Below, in pieces: positions 6,832 to 63,046 of a DNA stretch of 64,000 bases (positions are counted from its first letter, which is position 1; each line of letters begins with the position of its first letter). The DNA is taken from NCBI RefSeq assembly GCF_003634105.1, contig NZ_RBIQ01000008.1, forward strand, positions 62,001-126,000. The letters are read 5' to 3'. This DNA comes from Maribacter vaceletii. GTDB taxonomy: Bacteria > Bacteroidota > Bacteroidia > Flavobacteriales > Flavobacteriaceae. Under the pieces are notes generated by a model, which saw nothing but the letters and a program-made list of their open reading frames with translations, ran no database searches and was not told the DNA's origin. The position numbers were made by a program, and so were the translations under genes.

Positions 6832-8889
6832 TTATTCCTTTTTATAATTAGGAATGCTAAAAGCAAAAGTACTACCCTTATTTTCTTTGCTTTTAACCCA
6901 TATTTTTCCATGGTTTAATTCTATCATTTCTTTACATAAGGATAAACCTAAACCTGTCCCTTTTTCATTAGATGTGCCATAAGTGGAAAAATGTTTACGT
7001 TCGTTAAAAAGCTTATTAATGTCTTCTTTTTTTATCCCTTTACCGGTATCCGTAATATAGATTTGAACTTCTTTATTTGTATGTGCTGTGCTAATTTTAA
7101 TTGAACCACCTATTGGAGTAAATTTAATAGCATTATTTAATATATTTCTAAAAACTAGGTCTATGTGATCCTCATCTGCAAAAGCATTACTGTTTTTTGG
7201 TAATTCTATGGAAACATTTAATTCTTTTTTGTTAATTCTATCAGAAAATAATTTTACATTATTATCTGCAATTTCATTTAAATTTATTTTTTTTGAAAAA
7301 ACTTTAGAACCTTGCATTTGTGTATGCCCCCAAGTTAATAGATTGTTTAATGTAAAATGAATATGTTCTACATCATTTTTTAGCTTAGGTATAAAACGTT
7401 TAATTACAGTTTCTTCTTCAGTTGCTTCTAGTAATTGTTTTAAGGATGTTATAGGTCCTCTTAAATCATGACCTATAATAGAGAATAATTTATCTTTAGT
7501 TGTATTAATTTTTTTTAATTCTTGCTCATTAAATGCTAAGATTTCATTTTTTACTTTTAGAGCTTCACTTAATTTTTTTTGAGTAGTTAAATTTTTAATA
7601 ATTAATGATGCTATAACAAATAAAATAAATAACGTAATTAATGAGAAATAGAGTAAATTCTTTTGCTTATTGACTTTAGTTTTGTTCTCATTAATTAATT
7701 TTCGCTGTTCCTTTTTATGTTGGTTTTCAATATCTAGTAACGCAATACCTATTACTTGCTCATTTTTAGAAAGAGAATCAGACATTTTTTTAAAAAGACG
7801 ATGATATTTTAAAGCATTAGTGTCATCATTTAATTTTTCATATATCAATGACAAATTCTCAGCTGATTTAGATATCCCTATTGGATATCTTATTTCTTCG
7901 GCTAAATTACAGGCTTTAATAGCAAATTCTTTTCCTAGTGCAATATTGTTTTTTTCTATATATAACTTTGCCATAGAATTATATAAATCCATAACACCAA
8001 TGTCATAATTTGTAGAAAGTTGAATAGGTTCACTTTTTTTATACCAAATTAAAGCATCATCATATTTTTTTTCATTTAAAAGAATATCCCCTTTAAGCAT
8101 AAAGGCATAACCTAACCATTCGTATAAATCATTATCCTCTACAATTTTTATCCCTTTGTTAATAGAAGTAGTAGCTTGGCCTAATTTATTTAACCCAATA
8201 TATGCTCTAGTCATATTACACATGGTTATACCTATTGAAGTAGAATCATTTATTTTAGTAGCTAAAACATTTGCTTTATTAAAATATTTAAGGGCTCTAC
8301 GGTATAGTTTTTTGTGACTATACGTGACGGCTATATTTTGATATATAGTAAGTAAGTATTGTTTATTCTCAATTTTTTCTGCTAATATTTTTCCTTTTAA
8401 ATATTCTTTTAATGCTTTAGAGCTGTCTCCAGTATGGTCATATTCAATTGCTAAATGATTACTTATTTCTAATAAAAGGCTTGTATCTTTAGTTTTTAAA
8501 GCAATTTTTTTTGCATTTTTTAAATATTTAAAGACTAATGTATCTTTTCCTTTTTCTAAATAATAGTTACTTAAACCTATGTATGCAAACCCTTTTCCTT
8601 TATCATAATTAATAGAATTGCTATATTCTAAAATGCTATTAGATAAGGTTAGCAAGGTATCTGATGTAGAATACGTATATTCAATTGCTAGCTTATTTAA
8701 TAAGTTAATATAAACAGTATCCTTTACAGTAAAATCTTTTTTGTTCTCTTGTTCTTTAATTAAGTTTAATAAACTATCTTTTTTTATATTATTTATTTGA
8801 GAATAAATACTGGAAGTATTAAAAATAAAAAACCAAAAAAATATTTTTATGTAAAGGAGCGACTTAAGAAAATCTTTTAAGTTATTCAT
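6832..8889 (-). CDS. TPR-containing membrane sensor histidine kinase (paralogue 2)
   Basis: A 685-residue kinase with the same layout as its downstream neighbour: signal sequence, TPR-like ectodomain, membrane helix at about 409-431, coiled coil, HisKA with His474 in GHDLRGPITSL, and HATPase_c with NILNNAIKFTP, DTGKGI and GTGLGLSLCKEM. It is transcribed towards paralogue 1 with a 146-bp gap and no response regulator between them. The pair looks like an old tandem duplication: the catalytic cores are similar and the ectodomains have diverged. The cognate regulator must be encoded elsewhere. The gap of nearly 150 bp, and the palindrome before paralogue 1, suggest separate control. Confidence 0.88.
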   Translation of the reverse strand: MNNLKDFLKSLLYIKIFFWFFIFNTSSIYSQINNIKKDSLLNLIKEQENKKDFTVKDTVYINLLNKLAIEYTYSTSDTLLTLSNSILEYSNSINYDKGKGFAYIGLSNYYLEKGKDTLVFKYLKNAKKIALKTKDTSLLLEISNHLAIEYDHTGDSSKALKEYLKGKILAEKIENKQYLLTIYQNIAVTYSHKKLYRRALKYFNKANVLATKINDSTSIGITMCNMTRAYIGLNKLGQATTSINKGIKIVEDNDLYEWLGYAFMLKGDILLNEKKYDDALIWYKKSEPIQLSTNYDIGVMDLYNSMAKLYIEKNNIALGKEFAIKACNLAEEIRYPIGISKSAENLSLIYEKLNDDTNALKYHRLFKKMSDSLSKNEQVIGIALLDIENQHKKEQRKLINENKTKVNKQKNLLYFSLITLFILFVIASLIIKNLTTQKKLSEALKVKNEILAFNEQELKKINTTKDKLFSIIGHDLRGPITSLKQLLEATEEETVIKRFIPKLKNDVEHIHFTLNNLLTWGHTQMQGSKVFSKKINLNEIADNNVKLFSDRINKKELNVSIELPKNSNAFADEDHIDLVFRNILNNAIKFTPIGGSIKISTAHTNKEVQIYITDTGKGIKKEDINKLFNERKHFSTYGTSNEKGTGLGLSLCKEMIELNHGKIWVKSKENKGSTFAFSIPNYKKE

Positions 8890-21723: not shown

Positions 21724-21849
21724 TTACTTCATAAAAATGCTTATAATCTAAATTTAAATACTTAGAGGTTTTTCTCAATTTTTTTAAGATTATTTTCATA
21801 TAGATTTACCCATAGGTTATTTGCTAATTCTTATTACAATGTATTAATT

Positions 21850-53019: not shown

Positions 53020-53028
53020 ATAAATAGG

Positions 53029-53125
53029 AAACTACCTCAGGACAAGCCCGCGAGGCATTTATTTGGAAACTAATTTTGATTTCGAGGCAAGCCTCGGAGC
53101 ATTTAAATCTCGATTATCGAGTAAA
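53029..53125. repeat. 97-bp dispersed repeat, copy 1 (multi-hairpin element)
   Basis: 92 of 97 positions match the copy at 62950-63046 in the same orientation. Three adjacent imperfect hairpins are visible: CCTC...GGAC-AA-GCCC...GAGG, CGAGGC-AA-GCCTCG (53083-53096) and CTCGAT-T-ATCGAG (53109-53121). It occupies the gap between the convergent AlkD-like and TerC genes, and is more GC-rich than its surroundings. A REP/BIME-like or MITE-like element is likely. Confidence 0.85.
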
Positions 53126-53130
53126 AATTA

Positions 53131-53940
53131 CTATTCCATATTTTTAGGGACTCCTTTTTTATTTTTTTTCATTCTTAAATCAAAAAATTCTACCATTAAA
53201 GAAAAGGCTATAGTGAAGTATAAATATCCTTTTGGTATGGTACCAACTTCATTGTCAAAAACAATTAAATGAGCAAGGTGTGCTGCTTCTGCAATAAGCA
53301 TAAAGCCAATTAATATTAAGAAAGATAATCCAAGTATTTGTATGGAAGGATGACGATTTACGAACTCCCCAACTGGGTTAGCAAATAACATCATTATTAT
53401 TACAGAAACTACCACGGCAACAATCATTAAAATTAATGCATCATTAGGATTTGGAGAAATTCCATTGGTCATTCCTATGGCAGTCAAAATAGAATCAAAA
53501 GAGAAAACAATATTAATAACTGTTATTTGTACTATGGCGTTACTTAATGTTTTTGAACGTGCATTGGTTACCTCTCTTTCATCATGACCTTTATCTTCTA
53601 CTTTTTCATGTATTTCTTTTGTACTCTTATATAGTAGAAATAACCCACCAGCAAAGAGAATTATTGCTTGTCCGCTAATACCGCCAGAAATCCAATCCAA
53701 ATCAATAACCCAGAAAGGTTTTTTCATGGACGTTAGTAAGGATATACCAAAAAGAAGTACAATACGCATAACCATAGCCAATACTAACCCTATGTTGGTT
53801 GCTTTTTTTCTTTGAGCAGGTTCTAATTTTCCTGCAGCAATAGATATGAAAATAATATTATCTATACCTAATACAATTTCTAAAAAGGTTAAGGTTAAAA
53901 GAGCTATCCAAGCATCTGGATTAGAAAAAATTTCAAACAT
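53131..53940 (-). CDS. TerC-family integral membrane protein
   Basis: A 269-residue protein with about seven membrane helices. The signature is near the start, LTLTFLEIVLGIDNIIFISI, with the conserved ExxLxxDN-type acidic cluster, and a second VINIVFSFDSILTAIGM. TerC-like proteins are implicated in metal (manganese, tellurite) homeostasis, but specificity here is unknown. A small lipoprotein gene sits 2 bp upstream on the same strand. Confidence 0.91.
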   Translation of the reverse strand: MFEIFSNPDAWIALLTLTFLEIVLGIDNIIFISIAAGKLEPAQRKKATNIGLVLAMVMRIVLLFGISLLTSMKKPFWVIDLDWISGGISGQAIILFAGGLFLLYKSTKEIHEKVEDKGHDEREVTNARSKTLSNAIVQITVINIVFSFDSILTAIGMTNGISPNPNDALILMIVAVVVSVIIMMLFANPVGEFVNRHPSIQILGLSFLILIGFMLIAEAAHLAHLIVFDNEVGTIPKGYLYFTIAFSLMVEFFDLRMKKNKKGVPKNME

Positions 53941-53942
53941 GG

Positions 53943-54320
53943 TTATTTAGTTTTTGTTGCGGTTCCTGTTCTTACTATTAGTTTTTTATTGGTGTCTTTT
54001 ACTGCATTCTTATATTCAAAAGTATAAGAATTTTTTGTGGTACTCAATATTTTATAATGAATGGCAATATCATTATTTAAATCTTTTAAAACAAATTCAC
54101 AATCATTTAACCACCGTACAGAAGCGCTGTCAATTTTATTATCATAATAATCTACGCTGTAATCTTTATCACGTATAAATTTACCAGTTTTAGTAACTCC
54201 ATTTACTTCATAAGTAAACAAAAATTCTCCGGTTTTAAAGTCGGAACAGTTTCGTTCTGGTTGGTAACAAGAAATTACTGATAATACTAGTAATAGTATA
54301 CAGCTTAACTTTTTTATCAT
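53943..54320 (-). CDS. Small cysteine-containing lipoprotein
   Basis: A 125-residue exported protein with a lipobox (VISCYQPE), then two further cysteines in NCSDFKTG and LNDCEFVL that may form a disulfide. It is a beta-rich domain found in flavobacteria, with no known function that I can state. It is 2 bp upstream of terC, so the two are almost certainly co-transcribed, which suggests a role in the same metal or envelope process. Confidence 0.78.
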   Translation of the reverse strand: MIKKLSCILLLVLSVISCYQPERNCSDFKTGEFLFTYEVNGVTKTGKFIRDKDYSVDYYDNKIDSASVRWLNDCEFVLKDLNNDIAIHYKILSTTKNSYTFEYKNAVKDTNKKLIVRTGTATKTK

Positions 54321-54538
54321 AGTTTAATGAGGTATTTAAATTGATATATCTTTTTGTACGTTTTGGCTTAAGTTTTTATGCATGTAAATTTAGTTAAATA
54401 ATTGATTTTTAAATAATTGCAGTGTGTTTTTAGTTTTACTCTGTTTGAATAATTAATAACATAACAAAAAATACTCTACTGGTTGCAAATGTAATTTATA
54501 TAGATTGTATTTTTACTAATTAAATTTAAGAATTTTAG

Positions 54539-55657
54539 ATGCTATCATCCACAGAATATAAGAGAATAAAAGAGAAATCGGTTACTGGTCGTTATGTAAT
54601 TAATGAACAAATTATCTCTGTTTTAGAAAAATTACCTTCAGAATTTAGTGTTTCCTATATTGGGGATTCTGTCCAAAAAAGAAAAATTTATAGTGTTACT
54701 GTGGGTAATGGTTCTAATAAAATTTTAATGTGGTCTCAGATGCATGGTAACGAATCTACCACTACAAAAGCAGTATTAGATTTATTTAATTATTTACAAG
54801 AAGATACTAAAGAGGTACATGAGATAAAAGCAAATTGTACTTTGCATATTATTCCCATGCTAAATCCAGATGGAGCAGATGCGTATACTAGAATAAATGC
54901 AAATAAGATAGATTTGAATAGAGATGCGCAAAACCAAACGCAACCCGAGAGTACTATTTTAATGGCAGAGTATAAAAAGTTTAAACCTAACTATTGCTTT
55001 AATTTACATGATCAGCGTACTATTTTTAATGTAGGTACAACTAATAAGCCCGCAACAGTTTCTTTTTTAGCTCCTGCACACGATGAAGAAAGAACTATTT
55101 CTACAACTAGAGGAATAAGTATGCAATTAATTGTGGCAATGAATACTGAGTTGCAAAAACTAATTCCAGGGCAAGTTGGTAGGTATGATGATGGGTTTAA
55201 TGCAAATTGTGTTGGAGACACTTTTCAAATGTTACATATTCCTACGATACTTTTTGAATCTGGTCATTATCCTAACGATTATGAAAGGGAAACTACACGA
55301 GAGCTTATATATATATCTTTACTAAAAGCAATTGGAACAATTAGTTTGGGGATTATTACTAATTATAGCCAGAAAGACTATACTGCCATACCAGAAAATG
55401 GAAAACTTTTTTTAGATGTTTTAATAAGTAATGTAGAGGAAATTAATCCAAATTTAGATGCAAATACTGATATAGGTATATTGTTTAAAGAAACCTTAAA
55501 AGATGGTTTTATTGAGTTTGTGCCAACTATAGAGAAGGTTGGAAAATTAAAAAACTCCTATTATGGTCATAAAACGTATAATTGTTTAAAAGATGAAGAG
55601 CTGTTTGTCTTAAAAAAGGAACCTTTTATAGAACTTTTGGAGGAATATATTGCATAA
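54539..55657 (+). CDS. M14-family zinc carboxypeptidase-like protein
   Basis: A 372-residue protein without a visible signal peptide. The zinc ligands fit M14: His69 and Glu72 in MHGNEST, and His157 in FNLHDQR. The catalytic glutamate is likely Glu240 in LFESGHYPNDYERE. NPDGADAYTRINANKIDLNRD carries the arginine for substrate binding. The lack of a signal peptide suggests a cytoplasmic peptidase, perhaps for cell-wall peptides. It is followed at 106 bp by lrp. Confidence 0.87.
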   Translation: MLSSTEYKRIKEKSVTGRYVINEQIISVLEKLPSEFSVSYIGDSVQKRKIYSVTVGNGSNKILMWSQMHGNESTTTKAVLDLFNYLQEDTKEVHEIKANCTLHIIPMLNPDGADAYTRINANKIDLNRDAQNQTQPESTILMAEYKKFKPNYCFNLHDQRTIFNVGTTNKPATVSFLAPAHDEERTISTTRGISMQLIVAMNTELQKLIPGQVGRYDDGFNANCVGDTFQMLHIPTILFESGHYPNDYERETTRELIYISLLKAIGTISLGIITNYSQKDYTAIPENGKLFLDVLISNVEEINPNLDANTDIGILFKETLKDGFIEFVPTIEKVGKLKNSYYGHKTYNCLKDEELFVLKKEPFIELLEEYIA

Positions 55658-55711
55658 TATGATATTTAATTACCTGAACGTTACATTTTTGTTATAATAA
55701 GGCAACTTTTA

Positions 55712-55742
55712 TTGAGTTTTCTATTGTAATTTATTATTTTCG
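55712..55742 (+). promoter_or_regulatory. Bacteroidota promoter for the Lrp gene
   Basis: TTG at 55712-55714, 20-bp spacer, TATTTTCG at 55735-55742, matching TAnnTTTG with one change. The start codon follows 20 nt later. Confidence 0.65.
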
Positions 55743-55762
55743 CATCTAAACTATTTATAACC

Positions 55763-56242
55763 ATGAGCAAAGTTAAGTTAGACGAGATAGATCATCAGAT
55801 TCTAGATATGTTAATAGATAACACTAGAACACCATTTACAGATATAGCAAAGAAATTATTAATATCTGCTGGTACTGTACATGTTAGAGTAAAGAAAATG
55901 GAAGAGGCTGGAATAATAAAAGGTTCCTCTTTAACTATAGATTATGTTAAGTTAGGATATTCTTTTATAGCTTATGTTGGTGTATTCTTAGAAAAAACAC
56001 ACCAGACAAAATTTGTGTTAGAGCGATTAAATGAAATTCCAAATGTAACTGTTGCTCATATTACTACAGGAAAGTTTAATATTTTCTGTAAGATTAGAGC
56101 AAAAGATACTACTCATGCTAAAAATATTATTTTTAAAATTGATGATATTGAGGGAATTAGTAGAACAGAAACAATGATTTCTTTAGAAGAAAGCATTAAT
56201 GATAAAAAACGATTAATGCATAAAATTTTTAATGAATTGTAA
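55763..56242 (+). CDS. Lrp/AsnC-family transcription regulator
   Basis: A 159-residue regulator. The N-terminal helix-turn-helix (LDEIDHQILDMLIDNTRTPFTDIAKKLL... TVHVRVKKMEEAGII) is followed by a RAM/AsnC ligand-binding domain (about 70-145: FIAYVGVFLE, FNIFCKIRAKD). It binds DNA as an octamer or dimer and responds to amino acids. A terminator follows. Targets cannot be told from the sequence. Confidence 0.92.
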   Translation: MSKVKLDEIDHQILDMLIDNTRTPFTDIAKKLLISAGTVHVRVKKMEEAGIIKGSSLTIDYVKLGYSFIAYVGVFLEKTHQTKFVLERLNEIPNVTVAHITTGKFNIFCKIRAKDTTHAKNIIFKIDDIEGISRTETMISLEESINDKKRLMHKIFNEL

Positions 56243-56265
56243 TAGCATTAATTAATAAAAACCTG

Positions 56266-56301
56266 AATCCTAATTGAAATTATTTTAATTAGGATTTTTT
56301 A
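56266..56301 (+). terminator. Intrinsic terminator after the Lrp gene
   Basis: AATCCTAATT / AATTAGGATT, a perfect 10-bp stem with an 11-nt loop followed by a T run. It is 24 bp after the stop and 11 bp before the next start. Confidence 0.8.
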
Positions 56302-56311
56302 TTTAATAAAA

Positions 56312-56827
56312 ATGAAAAAATCGGATTTACAAGAAGCAGCGTATAAAGAGTTTTATGCCACTTATTTAAATGCTATTGAAGATGTAGAACTAATGTCTGA
56401 ACTGCTTAATGGAAAAAAACAGTTTAAAGATTTAGTAGAAACTATAGATGCTACTAAATTATCTTATGCCTATGGTAAGGATAAATGGACAGTGGCAGAA
56501 GTTTTACTACATATTATAGATACAGAAAGAGTTTTTCAATATAGGGCACTATGCTTTTGTAGAAATGATAAAACAGCTTTACCTGGATTTAATGAAAATG
56601 ATTATGCAAAAGAAGTTTCTATTGCGAATAGAAATAAAGAAAACATACTAGAAGAATTCCTTGCTGTAAGAGAATCTACAATTGCGTTGTTTAAAAATGT
56701 TACTAAAAAGCAGTTGCTGCATACAGGTACTGCAAGTAATATACAATGGAGTGTTGGTGGATTAGGCTTTGTTATTTGCGGTCACCAAAAACACCACATG
56801 AAAATTTTAGAAGACAGGTATTTTTAA
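56312..56827 (+). CDS. DinB-family protein
   Basis: A 171-residue four-helix-bundle protein. Three histidines in the right places for a metal site are visible: VLLHIIDTERVF near 70, and GHQKHHMKILEDRY at the C terminus. DinB/YfiT-like proteins include thiol (for example bacillithiol) S-transferases. In view of the bacillithiol gene bshB1 in this window, a thiol-transferase role is plausible but not shown. It lies just after the Lrp terminator. Confidence 0.86.
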   Translation: MKKSDLQEAAYKEFYATYLNAIEDVELMSELLNGKKQFKDLVETIDATKLSYAYGKDKWTVAEVLLHIIDTERVFQYRALCFCRNDKTALPGFNENDYAKEVSIANRNKENILEEFLAVRESTIALFKNVTKKQLLHTGTASNIQWSVGGLGFVICGHQKHHMKILEDRYF

Positions 56828-56828
56828 T

Positions 56829-57155
56829 CTATTCTATTTCATTCTCTAAAGAATCTGAATCTATACCTAATTGAATTTCGGAGGAGTCTACTTCTTCTAA
56901 AACATTTGTAGTATTGGGCTCTAGTTCTTTTTCTACGTTGTCTTCAAAATTTGCAATAAAGTTAGATAAGCTTTTACTAATCTTTACTAAATAAACAGTG
57001 TCTTTTGTTTTTAATTCAACAGTTTCTATAATTTCACCATTTAAATTTTTAAAAATGATAATATCATCATCACCATATCCATGCGGGTATGTTTCAATTA
57101 AAAGAGAAACAAGGCTGTGGTCTAATTTTTTGTAATCTACAAGTTTGCGTAACAT
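56829..57155 (-). CDS. Conserved short protein with acidic tail
   Basis: A 108-residue cytoplasmic protein. The first half (YKKLDHSLVSLLIETYPHGYGDDDIIIFKNLNGEIIE, split here) is well structured, and the C-terminal third is acidic (EVDSSEIQLGIDSDSLENEIE). I recall similar proteins in other flavobacteria but no assigned function. The stop is 1 bp from the stop of the convergent DinB gene. Confidence 0.74.
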   Translation of the reverse strand: MLRKLVDYKKLDHSLVSLLIETYPHGYGDDDIIIFKNLNGEIIETVELKTKDTVYLVKISKSLSNFIANFEDNVEKELEPNTTNVLEEVDSSEIQLGIDSDSLENEIE

Positions 57156-57252
57156 AATGTATAGGTTTGGTTTTTATACTACCGAATCTATATAATTTAT
57201 GCTTTCCTTTTTTTAAAGAGTTGTAAAATGAAGAATTTAGTGTATGAATCTC

Positions 57253-58314
57253 TTATTCTTTGTAGTAAGAAAAAGCTTCGGAAAATAATTCGTCTTTAAT
57301 TTTAATGTCGTAGACAGCTTCGCCAATACTTTTTAGTAAAACAAAATTGATGTTACCATGAGAATTTTTCTTATCAAAAATTAAAAGTTTTAGAATACTT
57401 TTTATTCCTTCCTCTGTAAATTCAATTTTTTTGTATCTACCTAAAAAAGTTTCTTTAATATCTTCTAATTCACTTTTAGGCAGTCCTGTAAGTTTATAGG
57501 ATAAGTATCCTTCTAAAATCATACCAATAGCAATTGCCTCACCATGTAAAAGTGTAGGCAATTCTTCACTCTCTAAATAATGAGACTCTATAGCGTGTCC
57601 TAAAGTGTGGCCGTAATTTAATATTTTACGTAGGTTTTGCTCTGTTGGGTCAATGGTAACAACATCATTCTTAATAATAACAGAATCATGTATGTGCGCT
57701 TCCATTTCTTTATAAGAGGTTATCTTTTTAAGCTCTCCCCAATAGTTTTTGTCTTTAATAAGACCATGTTTTAGCATTTCTGCAAAGCCACTTTCTATTT
57801 GCCTAGCTTCTAAAGTCTGTAAAAATTCTGGAACAATAAGAACCATTTGTGGCTGGTTTATAACTCCAATTTGGTTTTTTAAAGGTCCTAAATCAACACC
57901 AGTTTTACCACCTACAGATGCATCAACCATAGAAAGCAATGTTGTAGGTATATTTATAAAATTAATTCCTCTTTTAAAAGTAGAAGCAACAAAGCCACCT
58001 AAATCTGTTAAAACACCACCTCCTAGGTTAAGAAGAATACTTTTTCTGTCCCCACCAAGTTCCGAAAGCGCGCTCCAAACACCAGTACAGGTTTCTATGT
58101 TTTTATTTTCTTCTCCAGATTCTATTTCTATAATTTCAAACGCATAGTCTCCAGTAATTTGAGACATAAAAGCAGGTAAACAGTGCTCATGCGTATTTTC
58201 ATCTACCATAATAAATATAGTAGAATACGTATGTTCCTCTAAATGCGCATTAAGAGCATTAAAAGCATCCAAATTAAAATGTATAGAATAAGATGTAGTA
58301 GTAATAGATTTCAT
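57253..58314 (-). CDS. aroB: 3-dehydroquinate synthase
   Basis: A 353-residue enzyme of the shikimate pathway that converts DAHP to 3-dehydroquinate using NAD and a metal. The NAD signature is LNLGGGVLTDLGGFVASTFKRG, with the metal-binding GFAEMLKHGLI and the HTLGHAIE motif (zinc ligand). TLLSMVDASVGGKTGVD is also typical. It is divergent from proline dehydrogenase with a 134-bp gap that holds a terminator-like hairpin. Confidence 0.95.
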   Translation of the reverse strand: MKSITTTSYSIHFNLDAFNALNAHLEEHTYSTIFIMVDENTHEHCLPAFMSQITGDYAFEIIEIESGEENKNIETCTGVWSALSELGGDRKSILLNLGGGVLTDLGGFVASTFKRGINFINIPTTLLSMVDASVGGKTGVDLGPLKNQIGVINQPQMVLIVPEFLQTLEARQIESGFAEMLKHGLIKDKNYWGELKKITSYKEMEAHIHDSVIIKNDVVTIDPTEQNLRKILNYGHTLGHAIESHYLESEELPTLLHGEAIAIGMILEGYLSYKLTGLPKSELEDIKETFLGRYKKIEFTEEGIKSILKLLIFDKKNSHGNINFVLLKSIGEAVYDIKIKDELFSEAFSYYKE

Positions 58315-58335
58315 ATTTGCGATTACGTTTCTTTC

Positions 58336-58364
58336 AAAGATTTTTCAAAGAAAAATCTTTTTTT
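58336..58364. repeat. AT-rich inverted repeat between aroB and proline dehydrogenase
   Basis: AAAGATTTTT (58336-58345) and AAAAATCTTT (58351-58360) form a perfect 10-bp stem with a 5-nt loop, followed by T residues. It lies 22-46 nt upstream of the aroB start, in a divergent promoter region. It could be an operator or leader hairpin, or a chance AT-rich feature. Confidence 0.4.
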
Positions 58365-58418
58365 AATAGGGAACAAAATAAAGCTTATTTTAAATGAAAT
58401 GGATGCAAAAAGTGTTAT

Positions 58419-58426
58419 TATATTTG
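58419..58426 (+). promoter_or_regulatory. Putative -7 element before proline dehydrogenase
   Basis: TATATTTG, an exact TAnnTTTG match, 22 nt before the ATG. No clear -33 TTG. Confidence 0.4.
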
Positions 58427-58448
58427 ATGTTGACTAATATTTTAATAA

Positions 58449-59615
58449 ATGAAACAAATTTTTGAGAATACTGCAACGGCATTCGCTTTAAAAACAGATT
58501 CAGAACTAGAAAGAGCTTATTTTCTTTTTAAAATGATTGCAAATGAGCCTCTAGTAAAAATGGGTACAATAATGACAAATTTTGCAATTAAAGCACATTT
58601 ACCAGTAGAAGGATTAATAAGAGCTACTGTTTTTGACCACTTTTGTGGAGGTGTGAATGAAGAAGATTGTTTGCCTGTTGTAGAAAAAATGTGGGGAAAA
58701 GGAGTTTGTTCTGTATTGGATTACTCTGTAGAAGGTAAAGAAGAGGAAGCCACTTTTGATGAAGCCTTAGAAAAGATTTTAAAAATTTTAAATTTTGTAA
58801 AAGAATTAGATTCTATTCCTTTTGCAGTTTTTAAACCTACTGGCTTTGGAAGGTTTGCATTATTCCAAAAAGTATCTAGTAACACAGAGTTAACCACAGA
58901 TGAGAAACTAGAGTGGGAGCGTGTTAAAAAAAGATTTGATGTAGTTTGTAAAAAAGCTTACGACATGGAAGTAGCTTTGTTAATTGATGGGGAAGAAAGT
59001 TGGATGCAAAATGCGGCAGACCAAATGGTAGAAGATATGATGGCAAAATATAATACAGAAAAAGTGGTTGTATTTAACACTCTGCAAATGTATAGATGGG
59101 ACCGTTTGGAGTATTTAGAAGGCTTACATAAAAGAGCTAAAGAGAAAGGTTTTTTTGTAGGTTTAAAAGTAGTACGAGGTGCTTATTTAGAGAAAGAAAA
59201 TACTAGAGCAAAAGAAAAGGGGTACCCAACACCTATTTGCGCTAGTAAAAAAGATACTGATATTAATTTTGATGCAGCAGTTAGCTATATCTTAGATAAT
59301 TTAGATATTATTTCTCTTTTTTGTGGTACACATAATGAGTCTAGTAGTTATGCTTTAATAAAGCTTTTGAAAGATAAAAACATAGAAAAATCGGATACTA
59401 GAGTTTGGTTTGGACAACTCTATGGTATGAGCGATCATATCTCTTTTAATTTAGCAGACGAAGGGTATAATGTTGCTAAATATTTGCCTTTTGGCCCGGT
59501 AAGAGATGTTATGCCGTATTTAATACGTAGGGCAGAAGAAAATACATCTGTAGCAGGGCAAACTACAAGAGAATTAACTTTGTTAAAAGAAGAAAGAAAG
59601 AGAAGGAAAATTTAG
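58449..59615 (+). CDS. Proline dehydrogenase
   Basis: A 388-residue FAD enzyme of the PutA proline-dehydrogenase family. The barrel signatures are visible: LLIDGEESWMQ, VFNTLQMYRWDRLEYL, FVGLKVVRGAYLEKE with the FAD/substrate arginine-glycine pair, and FCGTHNESS; YLPFGPVRDVMPYLIRRAEEN is a further family feature. It oxidises proline to P5C and feeds electrons to the quinone pool. The stop overlaps the stop of the convergent DUF4258 gene by 4 bp. Confidence 0.94.
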   Translation: MKQIFENTATAFALKTDSELERAYFLFKMIANEPLVKMGTIMTNFAIKAHLPVEGLIRATVFDHFCGGVNEEDCLPVVEKMWGKGVCSVLDYSVEGKEEEATFDEALEKILKILNFVKELDSIPFAVFKPTGFGRFALFQKVSSNTELTTDEKLEWERVKKRFDVVCKKAYDMEVALLIDGEESWMQNAADQMVEDMMAKYNTEKVVVFNTLQMYRWDRLEYLEGLHKRAKEKGFFVGLKVVRGAYLEKENTRAKEKGYPTPICASKKDTDINFDAAVSYILDNLDIISLFCGTHNESSSYALIKLLKDKNIEKSDTRVWFGQLYGMSDHISFNLADEGYNVAKYLPFGPVRDVMPYLIRRAEENTSVAGQTTRELTLLKEERKRRKI

Positions 59616-59998
59616 TATTCAATTTTACTTATTTGTGCTTTGTCTTTGCAATTTTTTACTGTTAAAGTAGCTTCTTTTCCGTGTAATTCCCCTTCTATAA
59701 GGTATGTTTTACACGGATTAGATTTAGTATCACTATTACCAAAATCTACATCTCCGTTAATTAAAAAAGTAGCAATATCTGTAGAGTCTAATTCTTTATT
59801 TAAAAATAAGGTACTTATTTCTTCTGAGTAATGTAAAGGTTTAGAACGTATGTCTTTTAATGTTCTACAATTTGGTAAATAACAAAAAGATAAACTAGTA
59901 CCTGTCTCATCCGATTTTTTCTTGAAGAAAAATGTTAAACACACAATGCCTAATGATAGGCCAAATACAAAGTAACCTAAACGCTTTAAAAATGCCAT
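59612..59998 (-). CDS. DUF4258-like single-span membrane protein
   Basis: A 128-residue protein with one N-terminal membrane helix (about 8-25) and a cysteine pair in CYLPNCRTLKDIRSK. The soluble part has the alternating pattern of DUF4258 (HYSEEI, INGDVDFGNSD, YLIEGELHGKEATLTVKNC). It starts 1 bp after the alanine dehydrogenase stop, so the two are co-transcribed. Function unknown. Confidence 0.72.
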   Translation of the reverse strand: MAFLKRLGYFVFGLSLGIVCLTFFFKKKSDETGTSLSFCYLPNCRTLKDIRSKPLHYSEEISTLFLNKELDSTDIATFLINGDVDFGNSDTKSNPCKTYLIEGELHGKEATLTVKNCKDKAQISKIEY

Positions 59999-59999
59999 A

Positions 60000-61199
60000 T
60001 TAAAAAATCAAAAAATTGATGTCGCTATACTGTAAGTCAAACCATTCGCCTACAGATTTATTTGTTAAAATACCGTGGTAAAGATACAGACCATTTCTAA
60101 GACCTTTGTCAAAACGTAAAGAATTTTCTATTCCGCCATCTTCTCCAAGTTTTAGTAAATAAGGAGTAAAAATATTACTAATAGATACCGATGCAGTTTT
60201 TGGGTATCTAGAAGGAATATTAGGAACACCATAATGTACTACACCAAATTTTTCTACTGTAGGTTTATTGTGGCATGTAACCTCACTAGTTTCAAAGCAA
60301 CCACCCATATCTATACTAACATCAATAATTACAGCACCTTTTTTCATGTGTTCTACCATAGTACTAGAAACTACTACAGGTGAGCGGTCTTTTCCTCTAG
60401 TGGCACCAATTGCAACATCACACCTTTTTAATGCTTTTAATAAATTTTTTGGTTGTATTGTAGAAGTATATATGGTCTGATTTAAATTGGTTTGTATATT
60501 TCTAAGCTTGGTAATAGAATTGTCAAAAACTTTAATATTAGCTCCTAAACCAATTGCGGACCTAGCTGCAAATTCGCCAACGGTTCCAGCACCAATAATT
60601 ACAACTTCTACAGGAGGAACGCCACTAATATTACCAAACATTAAACCTTTTCCTTCATTAGTAACCGCCATTAACTCAGAAGCAATTAACACAGATGATA
60701 TTCCAGCAATTTCACTTAAAGAACGTACAGCAGGGTATTTACCATCTTCATCACGAATATACTCAAAAGCAATAGCCGTAATTCTCTTTTTTGCCAATGC
60801 TTCAAAATACCTTTTTTCTTGTATTTTTATTTGTAAAGCAGATATAATAGTTGCTTGCGGATTTAGCATTTCTATTTCTGCTAAAGTTGGTGGCTCCACT
60901 TTTAATAGAAGCGGACAAGAAAATACTTTTTTAGTGTCCTTAGTAATTTCTGCACCAGCATTGGTGTATTCTACATCTGTAAAGTTTGCACCTTCACCAG
61001 CACCAGATTCTATTAAAATTCTATGCCCATTTGCTGTTATAGCATTAACAGCATCTGGAGTTAAACAAATTCTTTTTTCTTGATGTTGATTTTCTTTTGG
61101 TAAGCCTATGAAAAGTTCTCCTTTCTGTTTTAATATTTCTAATGTTTCTTCTTGCGGAAGAAGTTGTTGTTTACTAAAAGGAGAAATTGGTAAATCCAT
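60000..61199 (-). CDS. ald: Alanine dehydrogenase
   Basis: A 399-residue NAD enzyme interconverting alanine and pyruvate plus ammonia. The N-terminal domain starts with FIGLPKENQHQEKRICLTPDAV, including the substrate-binding Arg and Lys; the nucleotide-binding motif VEVVIIGAGTVGEFAARSA is near 205. VHYGVPNIPSRYPKTAS is a family signature. It is somewhat longer than the classic enzyme (about 370 residues) because of an N-terminal extension. It is first in a two-gene unit with DUF4258. Confidence 0.9.
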   Translation of the reverse strand: MDLPISPFSKQQLLPQEETLEILKQKGELFIGLPKENQHQEKRICLTPDAVNAITANGHRILIESGAGEGANFTDVEYTNAGAEITKDTKKVFSCPLLLKVEPPTLAEIEMLNPQATIISALQIKIQEKRYFEALAKKRITAIAFEYIRDEDGKYPAVRSLSEIAGISSVLIASELMAVTNEGKGLMFGNISGVPPVEVVIIGAGTVGEFAARSAIGLGANIKVFDNSITKLRNIQTNLNQTIYTSTIQPKNLLKALKRCDVAIGATRGKDRSPVVVSSTMVEHMKKGAVIIDVSIDMGGCFETSEVTCHNKPTVEKFGVVHYGVPNIPSRYPKTASVSISNIFTPYLLKLGEDGGIENSLRFDKGLRNGLYLYHGILTNKSVGEWFDLQYSDINFLIF

Positions 61200-61234
61200 A
61201 TAAATAAAAGCAATAATATTAATGGTGTTATTAC

Positions 61235-61242
61235 CAAATTTA
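61235..61242 (-). promoter_or_regulatory. Putative -7 element before alanine dehydrogenase
   Basis: Minus-strand TAAATTTG, an exact TAnnTTTG match, 35 nt before the ATG. No -33 TTG at the expected distance. Confidence 0.35.
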
Positions 61243-61368
61243 CAACTTTTAATGCAATAATAAGATAAAGGAAAATCTTAGTGCTTATTGTGGTAGATTA
61301 GTAATAATTTAATGTTCTTTTATTATGTAATTGTTTCTGGTAAATAAGAATATAACTAATTTTGTTTT

Positions 61369-62274
61369 ATGAAAAATTACACCCTCTATTTTTTTGTGTT
61401 TTTATTTTTAAACTTTTTTTCTCCTGTTAATGCTCAGGAAATTAGAATTTTTTCAACGAAAGATTTTGATTTAAAAGACAGCGTGCAAACATGTTTAGTT
61501 AATACTAAATATGGTAAAGAAGAATATGAATTTTTAAAAGATGGACGCTTATCTAAATCAATTACAAGACATAGTGATGCTGATTATTCTATTACGTATT
61601 ATAAATATGAGGAAAAATTTTTAATTGAAAAAAGATTTGAAAACTATAGAGAAAATACTTTTGACCCTAGTACTTCCATTGCTAATATTTATACTATAGA
61701 CAGTACAACAACTTTAAAAATCACAGAAAAAATACTTACGTATTCTAAAGAGTTTTTAGAACAATATGAATATACCTATTCTAAAGAAAAAGTTTTAGAG
61801 AAAATTACAAGAACTAATGATACTGGTATAGATACTACAGTTATTACGTTTACAAATTTTAAAGGAGAAAACACAAAAACGTACAGTTTAAACGGAGAGG
61901 TTATTAAATCTATTAGAACATCAAAAATAAAAAGGAAAAATACTCCAGAACAAAAATTAGTACTCACTAAGACTTTTTTAAATGGTGAAGCAATATCTGC
62001 AGAGGAAGATATAGTTAATCTAAATGGTAAAATAGTTTCTAAGACAAAGTTTTTATTTAATACAGTTAAAAAAGAGTTTGAGCCACAGGAAGTTATACGA
62101 TATGATTATAACGAAAACGATATGCTGATTAAAACGGAGGAGAAATTAGAAGACACTATCACCATAAAAGAATATGTGTACCAATATGATGATGGCGATT
62201 CTGGTAATTGGATTAAACAAATTATTACGCCAGATAATAGCTACAAAACTAGGACTATAACTTACTTTGAATAA
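61369..62274 (+). CDS. Secreted protein of unknown function
   Basis: A 301-residue protein with an N-terminal signal peptide ending NAQ (residues 1-23), then beta-rich repeats of the form 'YEEKFLIEKRFENY', 'YEYTYSKEKVLEKITR', 'YDYNENDMLIKTEEK' and 'YVYQYDDGDSGNW'. These alternate-strand repeats resemble RHS/YD-type or WG-like antiparallel repeats in secreted bacterial proteins, but no named family is clear. Convergent with the downstream hydrolase gene, 5 bp apart. Confidence 0.75.
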   Translation: MKNYTLYFFVFLFLNFFSPVNAQEIRIFSTKDFDLKDSVQTCLVNTKYGKEEYEFLKDGRLSKSITRHSDADYSITYYKYEEKFLIEKRFENYRENTFDPSTSIANIYTIDSTTTLKITEKILTYSKEFLEQYEYTYSKEKVLEKITRTNDTGIDTTVITFTNFKGENTKTYSLNGEVIKSIRTSKIKRKNTPEQKLVLTKTFLNGEAISAEEDIVNLNGKIVSKTKFLFNTVKKEFEPQEVIRYDYNENDMLIKTEEKLEDTITIKEYVYQYDDGDSGNWIKQIITPDNSYKTRTITYFE

Positions 62275-62279
62275 GTAGT

Positions 62280-62924
62280 TTACGCTAAAGATTCTATTAT
62301 TTCTTTTTTAATGGCATGTTCGCCATCATAGACTATTATATTGGCTTTGCCATCTAATAAAAGTTGTATTCTTTTTTCTTCCAAAACTCTTTTGGCTTCT
62401 GTAATATATTCGTCTTTATCCCCAATAAAGAAGGTTATTTTTGTCTTGTTATTTATTAGGTTAGAAAATTTCTCTTTAGTTAATTCTTTAGGTATAATAC
62501 CACCATATAATACTAAATGATTACATTGGATTTTAGAATAACAAACCCATCTGCTAGCAATAGAAACGCCTTGAGAATACCCTAAAATAATAACTTTATG
62601 TTGGTCTGTTATATTTTCTTGTTGGTATACTTTGTTTAAATAATTTAAAACGTTTTGTGTTTCTAAAGTAGTATTTTCTTTAGTGAGCCAACTAGTGCCA
62701 ACACGACGATATTTATTATTTAAGTAATATTTAGAAGGGGCTTGTGGTGCAATTATATAGTTTTCTTCCGGAGGTAAGGAATCAAAATGTTTAATAAAGT
62801 ATCTACTTAAATACCCTATACCATGTAAAACAATCCATATGTTTTTGGTTTTAGTGGTTAAGGAGTTTAGAGTTTCGTAGGTGTTCGTTGTAGTGTAACT
62901 TACTTTTTTTTCTTGATTACTCAT
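62280..62924 (-). CDS. Alpha/beta hydrolase, phospholipase/carboxylesterase type
   Basis: A 214-residue hydrolase. It has the oxyanion-hole segment WIVLHGIGYLSRYF, a nucleophile elbow GYSQG (about 117-121), an acid in FFIGDKDEYI and the histidine in YDGEHAIKKE. The family includes lysophospholipases and carboxylesterases. There is no signal peptide. It diverges from the downstream thioesterase gene, with a dispersed repeat copy in between. Confidence 0.85.
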   Translation of the reverse strand: MSNQEKKVSYTTTNTYETLNSLTTKTKNIWIVLHGIGYLSRYFIKHFDSLPPEENYIIAPQAPSKYYLNNKYRRVGTSWLTKENTTLETQNVLNYLNKVYQQENITDQHKVIILGYSQGVSIASRWVCYSKIQCNHLVLYGGIIPKELTKEKFSNLINNKTKITFFIGDKDEYITEAKRVLEEKRIQLLLDGKANIIVYDGEHAIKKEIIESLA

Positions 62925-62949
62925 TTTGTTATAATAGCTATATTATAGT

Positions 62950-63046
62950 AAACTACCTCAGGGCAAGCCCACGAGGCATTTATTAGGAAACTAATTTTGA
63001 TTTCGAGGCAAGCCTCTGAGTATTTAAATCTCGATTATCGAGTAAA
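62950..63046. repeat. 97-bp dispersed repeat, copy 2 (multi-hairpin element)
   Basis: Matches copy 1 at 92 of 97 positions. Here the first hairpin is the better one, CCTCA-GGGC-AA-GCCC-ACGAGG, and the second is CGAGGC-AA-GCCTC. It lies in the gap between divergent genes (alpha/beta hydrolase and thioesterase), 26 bp from the hydrolase start, so it is not acting as a plain terminator. It is AT-poor compared with its surroundings. Confidence 0.85.

Follow-up and report, generated by a model that had tools for sequence, protein, structure and literature searches.

The 64,000-nucleotide window analysed here (positions 62,001 to 126,000 of contig NZ_RBIQ01000008.1 of Maribacter vaceletii) holds two copies of a short palindromic repeat, which are the subject of this work. 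The genes flanking copy 1, for DNA-alkylation repair and TerC, converge on it; those flanking copy 2, for an alpha/beta-hydrolase and a 4HBT thioesterase, diverge from it. A preliminary description of this DNA had already noted one convergent and one divergent gap. That description had paired 53029-53125 with 62950-63046, and the pair is real: 92 of 97 positions are identical, while the runner-up ungapped match to copy 1 in the window, on either strand, reaches 44/97. Both are also richer in GC than their surroundings, as claimed (GC 0.42 and 0.39; 300-bp flanks 0.27-0.33). The reported chain of three hairpins, two with an AA loop on the plus strand, is visible in each repeat, although not every base pair of the consensus structure is intact in the window copies. 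Folded as single-stranded DNA, copy 1 is no more stable than shuffled sequences (z -0.5, -1.3) and copy 2 is (z -3.0, -3.7); the corresponding values for RNA are -1.1 and -1.9 for copy 1 and -2.7 and -4.1 for copy 2.

We set the borders from 30 aligned copies of the same genome with their flanks, from the match to a covariance model built from 63 copies, and from the empty site of copy 2. The ends are sharp in this alignment, with AGTAA at left and right, and the refined borders, 53026-53124 and 62947-63045 (plus strand), lie 3 bp to the left of those first given. The element is thus 99 bp long, too short for a transposase gene, as are the palindrome-associated transposable elements (PATEs) to which we compare it below. 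Copy 1 (AGGAA...AGTAA) scores 111.2 bits with the model and copy 2 (AGTAA...AGTAA) 115.6 bits. A weak model match at 21738-21825 on the minus strand (E 0.0047) is possibly a decayed copy.

The preliminary description had suspected an abundant family, and this was borne out. At least 41 BLAST-level matches occur in the M. vaceletii genome (3.89 Mb in 15 contigs; 40 of 85 candidates scored), and the covariance model finds about 70 copies at E <= 0.01 (150 of 3334 candidates scored); the orientation analysis below draws on the 62 listed of these 70. Among same-family genomes, 50 of 249 have a match at E <= 1e-6, representing 47 of 235 genera. An exact 23-mer from the 3' end recurs in at least 111 stretches across the genome collection, the genera among the matches listed being Maribacter, Aquimarina, Salegentibacter, Leeuwenhoekiella, Arenibacter and Mesonia; the phage and plasmid collections gave no match to the element. 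Most M. vaceletii copies are intergenic (28/30 overlap no open reading frame (ORF) of at least 80 codons).

Might the repeat be a functional RNA or a terminator, duplicated for its function? Its hairpins co-vary (see below), and 22 of the 29 M. vaceletii copies that have a left neighbour sit downstream of a co-oriented gene, which speaks for it. Against this, convergent, divergent and tandem gaps are all occupied, so that the family is not position-specific, as previously proposed; no Rfam family matches over either copy; and the repeat is missing at orthologous sites in relatives. We therefore consider a functional RNA or terminator highly improbable.

These absences show that insertions are strain- or species-specific, as in PATEs, with clean empty sites at three M. 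vaceletii loci. Copy 2 is missing from three same-genus genomes, where a single AGTAAAGG stands at the site. Of six further loci whose joined flanks were searched, five aligned (L017, with split matches, was left out): at L008, four of the five aligned relatives keep the empty site intact with one AGTAA, the fifth (G004) having diverged, and at L009 both relatives have an empty site with one AGTAA. In the clean cases, AGTAA is a pre-existing target that is matched by the element's other end. Target-site duplications had been suggested as something to look for at the flanks of the copies. AGTAA is not a variable duplication of this kind, being nearly constant at both ends and already carried by the clean empty sites. 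A short fixed target at one end without duplication, here at three loci (in 3, 4 and 2 relatives), is again a property of PATEs. The base preceding GTAA is A in 29/30 M. vaceletii copies and 86/98 others, resembling the +1 base preference reported for IS608 and ISDra2 (PMC5934647; here and below we draw on excerpts of the cited papers). The element's ends, AGTAAACTACC and ..TCGAGTAA, are by inspection not reverse complements, and there are no terminal inverted repeats. A classical miniature inverted-repeat transposable element (MITE), moved by a DDE transposase, would likewise be short, non-coding, dispersed and recently mobile. It is not supported, because the ends are not mutual inverted repeats and the target is fixed and already present before insertion; we find this explanation scarcely credible.

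The anatomy of the element becomes clear when the consensus is read on the minus strand: two subterminal hairpins with TT loops point in the same direction, AATG stands 5' of each, and TTAC lies at each end. Both hairpins share the core GGCAAGCC, so that near-terminal palindromes are alike at both ends, as in PATEs. In copy 2 (all minus strand), the putative left-end cleavage site is the target TTACT (AGTAA on the plus strand) at 63041..63045, which a terminal palindrome, CTCGATAATCGAG, abuts (63030..63042). The left-end hairpin, CGAGGC-TT-GCCTCG in the consensus, follows at 63004..63017; the right-end hairpin (CCTCG, a bulged T, a 4-bp upper stem, a TT loop and CGAGG) occupies 62956..62976. 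The tetranucleotide AATG 5' of its foot (62977..62980), found in 45/63 aligned copies, would be the right-end guide, and TTAC at 62948..62951, found in 27/30 M. vaceletii copies, would be the right-end cleavage site (CR), roles that we assign from IS608 (PMC5934647). In copy 1, whose transposase-active strand is likewise predicted to be the minus strand, the left-end hairpin lies at 53083..53096 and the terminal palindrome at 53109..53121. In genome G028 (G and L numbers denote our genomes and loci), a palindrome of another sequence takes the same place.

Covariation among the 63 aligned copies supports this structure. Helix 1, the right-end hairpin, has double changes at 9/9 pairs and helix 2 at 3/6; summed over every pair, double-change cells number 37, where shuffles give 14.3. 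Paired cells make up 88.9% of the total; shuffling leaves 86.1%, and sliding the structure along the alignment 28 to 41%. Eleven of the double changes are a single G-C to C-G swap in the left-end hairpin (11/63 sequences), which may have been passed down within a single lineage; helix 3 is uninformative about covariation, since the 3'-end sequences of many rows were picked by exact match to it.

The same structure bears on the earlier suggestion that this is a REP/BIME- or MITE-like family. What stood is that it is abundant, dispersed, mobile and mostly intergenic; neither the classical MITE nor a family of repetitive extragenic palindromes or bacterial interspersed mosaic elements (REP/BIME) did. 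Like REPs and their paired forms (REPINs), which are tied to the HUH enzyme TnpAREP (PMC6006769, PMC3733652), the element is a short, high-copy, intergenic palindrome, and RAYT-like genes (REP-associated tyrosine transposases, named by inspection) are present in two same-genus genomes (L065 in G003, L066 in G001). However, the flanks read at these two genes contain no element, and no RAYT, the enzyme suggested earlier as one to look for, was found in the M. vaceletii genome: a PF01797 search returned one Y1 gene, an ordinary IS200 TnpA with unrelated ends and no element in its 3.4-kb locus, and it found no RAYT in G028 either. The GT[AG]G (GTAG/GTGG) tag of REPs is absent 5' of the hairpin foot, where the consensus reads AATG on the minus strand or ACTA/ATTT on the plus strand; the two hairpins share one orientation within an insertion unit instead of being inverted; and whole elements are seen to insert. 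A RAYT-driven REP/BIME family, already weakened, is therefore very unlikely.

The guide and cleavage letters can be compared with those of IS608. In IS608, the left cleavage site and guide (CL/GL) are TTAC/AAAG and the right pair (CR/GR) is TCAA/GAAT (PMC5934647). When the first letter of one is set against the second of the other, the second against the first, and the fourth against the fourth, all are Watson-Crick pairs in both CL/GL and CR/GR. This scheme, which combines our reading of the IS608 letters with general knowledge of the system, fits both ends of the M. vaceletii consensus (AATG/TTAC). It also fits the predicted letters of the G028 elements and of an IS200 in G147 (both left AATA/TTAT, right AATG/TTAC), of the main IS200 subfamily described below (left AATT/TTAA, right GATA/TCAT), and of the right end of L240 (AATA/TTAT). 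Guide and cleavage letters thus differ together between subfamilies; as the letters of single family copies do not co-vary, the rule rests on this between-subfamily comparison. Left guides are AATG in 45/63 and AATA in 14/63 aligned copies.

The lagging-strand template is where members of the IS200/IS605 family insert (PMC6006769; PMC7290912), and copies of the element are biased towards it as well. We placed origins and termini from the GC skew of 20 sampled 20-kb stretches, with breakpoints for G028 and G280 set by hand and then automatically. In the complete genome G028, the predicted active strand of all 17 young copies lies on the leading-strand sequence, which is the lagging-strand template (17/17, p=5e-5); 15 of these are full-length and 96-100% identical to the query copy, and two are interrupted. 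Among the listed copies the orientation holds for 39/49 in G028 (automatic breakpoints; 40/49 by hand; 42 rows merged with 30 covariance-model rows) and 30/40 in G280 (40 listed of 83), a significant bias in each, and for 98/138 in four genomes pooled (G028, G280, G265 and G130, with M. vaceletii excluded; p=1e-6). Gene direction does not explain the G028 bias, since the left neighbour is co-oriented in just 5 of 10 located loci (of 15). As for neighbouring genes, AGTAA provides the TAA stop of an upstream ORF in 7/30 M. vaceletii copies, which, judging by ORF positions, suggests that insertions can be harmless.

A candidate for the enzyme emerged when a scan with the element's 5' unit matched, in G013, the right ends of a different IS200 TnpA subfamily. 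This Y1 subfamily is present in 16/249 genomes (19/397 in a larger draw with another cut-off). Its right ends and the minus-strand element have a common layout: CCYCG, a bulged base, a 4-bp stem, a TT loop, CGRGG and TAGTTYAY. The strict pattern was written for the tail of the insertion sequences (IS), TTYATT, and the tail of the element itself would not fit it. It lies 3' of tnpA at 14 of the 23 usable loci of the subfamily and occurs 0 times in 2 Mb of background; variant letters, judged by eye, add 7 of the 23, and the pattern is absent in two (L249, L255). These loci are not independent, several being near-identical copies from G013 and G147. In 5/5 copies of the G147 IS200, the right end consists of AATG as guide, with its G opening GCCTCGGGGCTTGCCCCGAGG, then a CCTCGGGGCTTGCCCCGAGG hairpin and TTTAC; the left end, in 4/4 copies, is almost the same as that of the G028 elements and as the left-end hairpin of copy 2. 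Ends related to IS200/IS605-type transposons are a further feature of PATEs. The element and the subfamily co-occur above expectation (7/16 versus 43/233 genomes, p=0.023, assuming that both counts drew the same 249 genomes), and a decayed subfamily gene in the same-genus genome G005 has one locus with an element copy (L071/L075). A search for long composites, in which the 5' and 3' units stand far apart, gave nothing longer than 163 bp. Another hairpin of similar layout, at about 996-1021 of L070 in G013, was placed in no family.

From these data it is highly probable that each repeat is a 99-bp, gene-less, non-autonomous IS200/IS605-type transposable element, a PATE, moved by a Y1 enzyme in trans. 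Most likely the element moves as single-stranded DNA during replication by means of a borrowed enzyme; similarity of the ends is what points to the Y1 subfamily as the mobilising transposase. The active strand would be the minus strand of the window, along which TTAC and the terminal palindrome are followed by a first AATG with the left hairpin, a short core, a second AATG with the right hairpin, and TTAC again. Provided in trans, a Y1 (HUH) transposase would bind both hairpins, the AATG 5' of each would pair with the TTAC at each end, and the element would leave as single-stranded DNA and enter the lagging-strand template 3' of a TTAC(T). The enzyme would since have been lost from the M. vaceletii genome.

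Several observations weigh against this account. A transposase of the matching subfamily was found neither in the M. vaceletii genome nor in G028, whose copies are the youngest observed, and of nine sampled genomes with at least 13 matches (G000, G002, G028, G110, G130, G174, G191, G208 and G265; up to 16 matches listed per genome) only G174 has the subfamily enzyme. No autonomous element with exactly the M. vaceletii type of left end was found. The IS right ends match the element query weakly (2.4-11.1 bits, nhmmer), within the range of background matches, which without a recognised left end reach 23 bits (some of these being unflagged element copies); because raw match scores are low, the link between element and IS rests on position and layout. 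The strand bias is not significant alone in G265 (13/22), G130 (16/27) or M. vaceletii (33/49, p=0.10, counted without contigs C4-C8, which hold 13 of the 62 listed copies and no skew sample), though its direction is the same. Not every locus has a clean site: copy 1 is absent from three same-genus genomes in which the flanks have diverged and no clean AGTAA is seen, the orthologous sites of L013 and L006 read AATAA and AATAG, and the diverged L008 orthologue in G004 lacks a clean AGTAA. The M. vaceletii left-end guide stands 3 nt away from the 6-bp stem. Exceptions to the pairing scheme occur at the right ends of L464 and L251 (GATA/TTAT, a G.T pair) and the left end of L477 (AATA/TTAA), and the cut sites of G028, G147 and the other IS were placed where flanks diverge, without empty sites. 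Nor is there copy-by-copy covariation: right ends read AATG/TTAC in 37/63 copies, AATA/TTAC in 3 and AATG/TTAT in 3, with the rest scattered. The off-rule letters may be later mutations, or the guide rule may be looser than proposed.

Since a matching transposase was not found in most many-copy genomes, the same element could instead have another mover: an unrecognised Y1 enzyme, which overlaps the explanation that we prefer, or a site-specific recombinase with an AGTAA core. We regard this as unlikely, as the right-end layout, the guide rule and the direction of the replichore bias all speak for a Y1 enzyme of the IS200 type, and the decayed subfamily gene in G005 shares its locus with an element copy.

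The closest known relatives of the proposed PATE are those of Haloquadratum walsbyi, which also lack terminal inverted repeats and target duplications, have near-terminal palindromes that resemble each other at the two ends, a 4-5 bp target at the 5' end and ends related to IS605-type elements, and include 52-bp core-deleted forms and small mobile repeats inserted into palindromes (PMC3119063). The present element differs in being bacterial (Flavobacteriaceae), in its core of about 30 bp, in the extra palindrome abutting the target, and in the identical guide and cleavage site at both ends of the M. vaceletii consensus. With IS608 and the IS200/IS605 family it has in common insertion 3' of TTAC, subterminal hairpins on one strand, a guide 5' of the hairpin, the +1 base preference and the lagging-strand template bias (PMC5934647, PMC6006769); it has no tnpA, and IS608 differs in its CL/CR (TTAC, TCAA) and guides (AAAG, GAAT) (PMC5934647). 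A PATE-like sequence of Halanaerobium hydrogeniformans is also an ends-only IS605 derivative, reported as one copy of about 271 nt rather than dozens of 99 bp; in that organism no leading or lagging preference was reported (10/22 tnpA) (PMC7290912).

Variants of the element recall these systems further. Forms of about 54 bp with a single hairpin, identified by eye among the at least 111 loci (L186, L096, L122, L144 and L119), correspond to core-deleted PATEs. GC-rich small palindromes were seen by eye inside element hairpins at L188, L189, L145, L161, L137, L172, L133, L151, L129 and L197; L276 also has a small palindrome inside a hairpin, and L128 a GC-rich one beside a hairpin. Such hairpin-inserted palindromes are reminiscent of the SMR-A repeats that invade Haloquadratum PATE palindromes (PMC3119063). 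At L118 (minus strand, about 7481-7555 of the reversed locus), two tandem elements have a single AGTAA in common, as would result from insertion of one at the end of the other. Solo terminal palindromes, apparently remnants after internal deletion, appear as short matches in G003, G004, G013 and G024 and among the orthologues of L025, where two relatives (G002/G007) retain only a terminal-hairpin remnant and two have diverged.

We class the repeat as a new PATE family of Flavobacteriaceae: it has the PATE features that we tested and lacks those tested for REPs and MITEs. This accounts for a high-copy repeat of the Flavobacteriaceae of which our searches of the open-licence PMC literature yielded no published description. 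A broader reading, which we offer tentatively and think somewhat more doubtful than probable, is that a PATE lineage in about one fifth of the sampled Flavobacteriaceae genera re-programs its target by exchanging guide letters (from AATG/TTAC to AATA/TTAT) along with a replaceable terminal palindrome, and survives on borrowed transposases that come and go, so that the elements would far outlive their enzymes. If so, the single-strand transposition complex would have a new component, namely the terminal palindrome next to the target. More generally, a non-autonomous family flourishes where no matching enzyme was found, including on one complete chromosome with near-identical copies. Its guide and cleavage letters are candidate natural variants of the IS608-type DNA guide code, and its orientation is a possible marker of replication direction.

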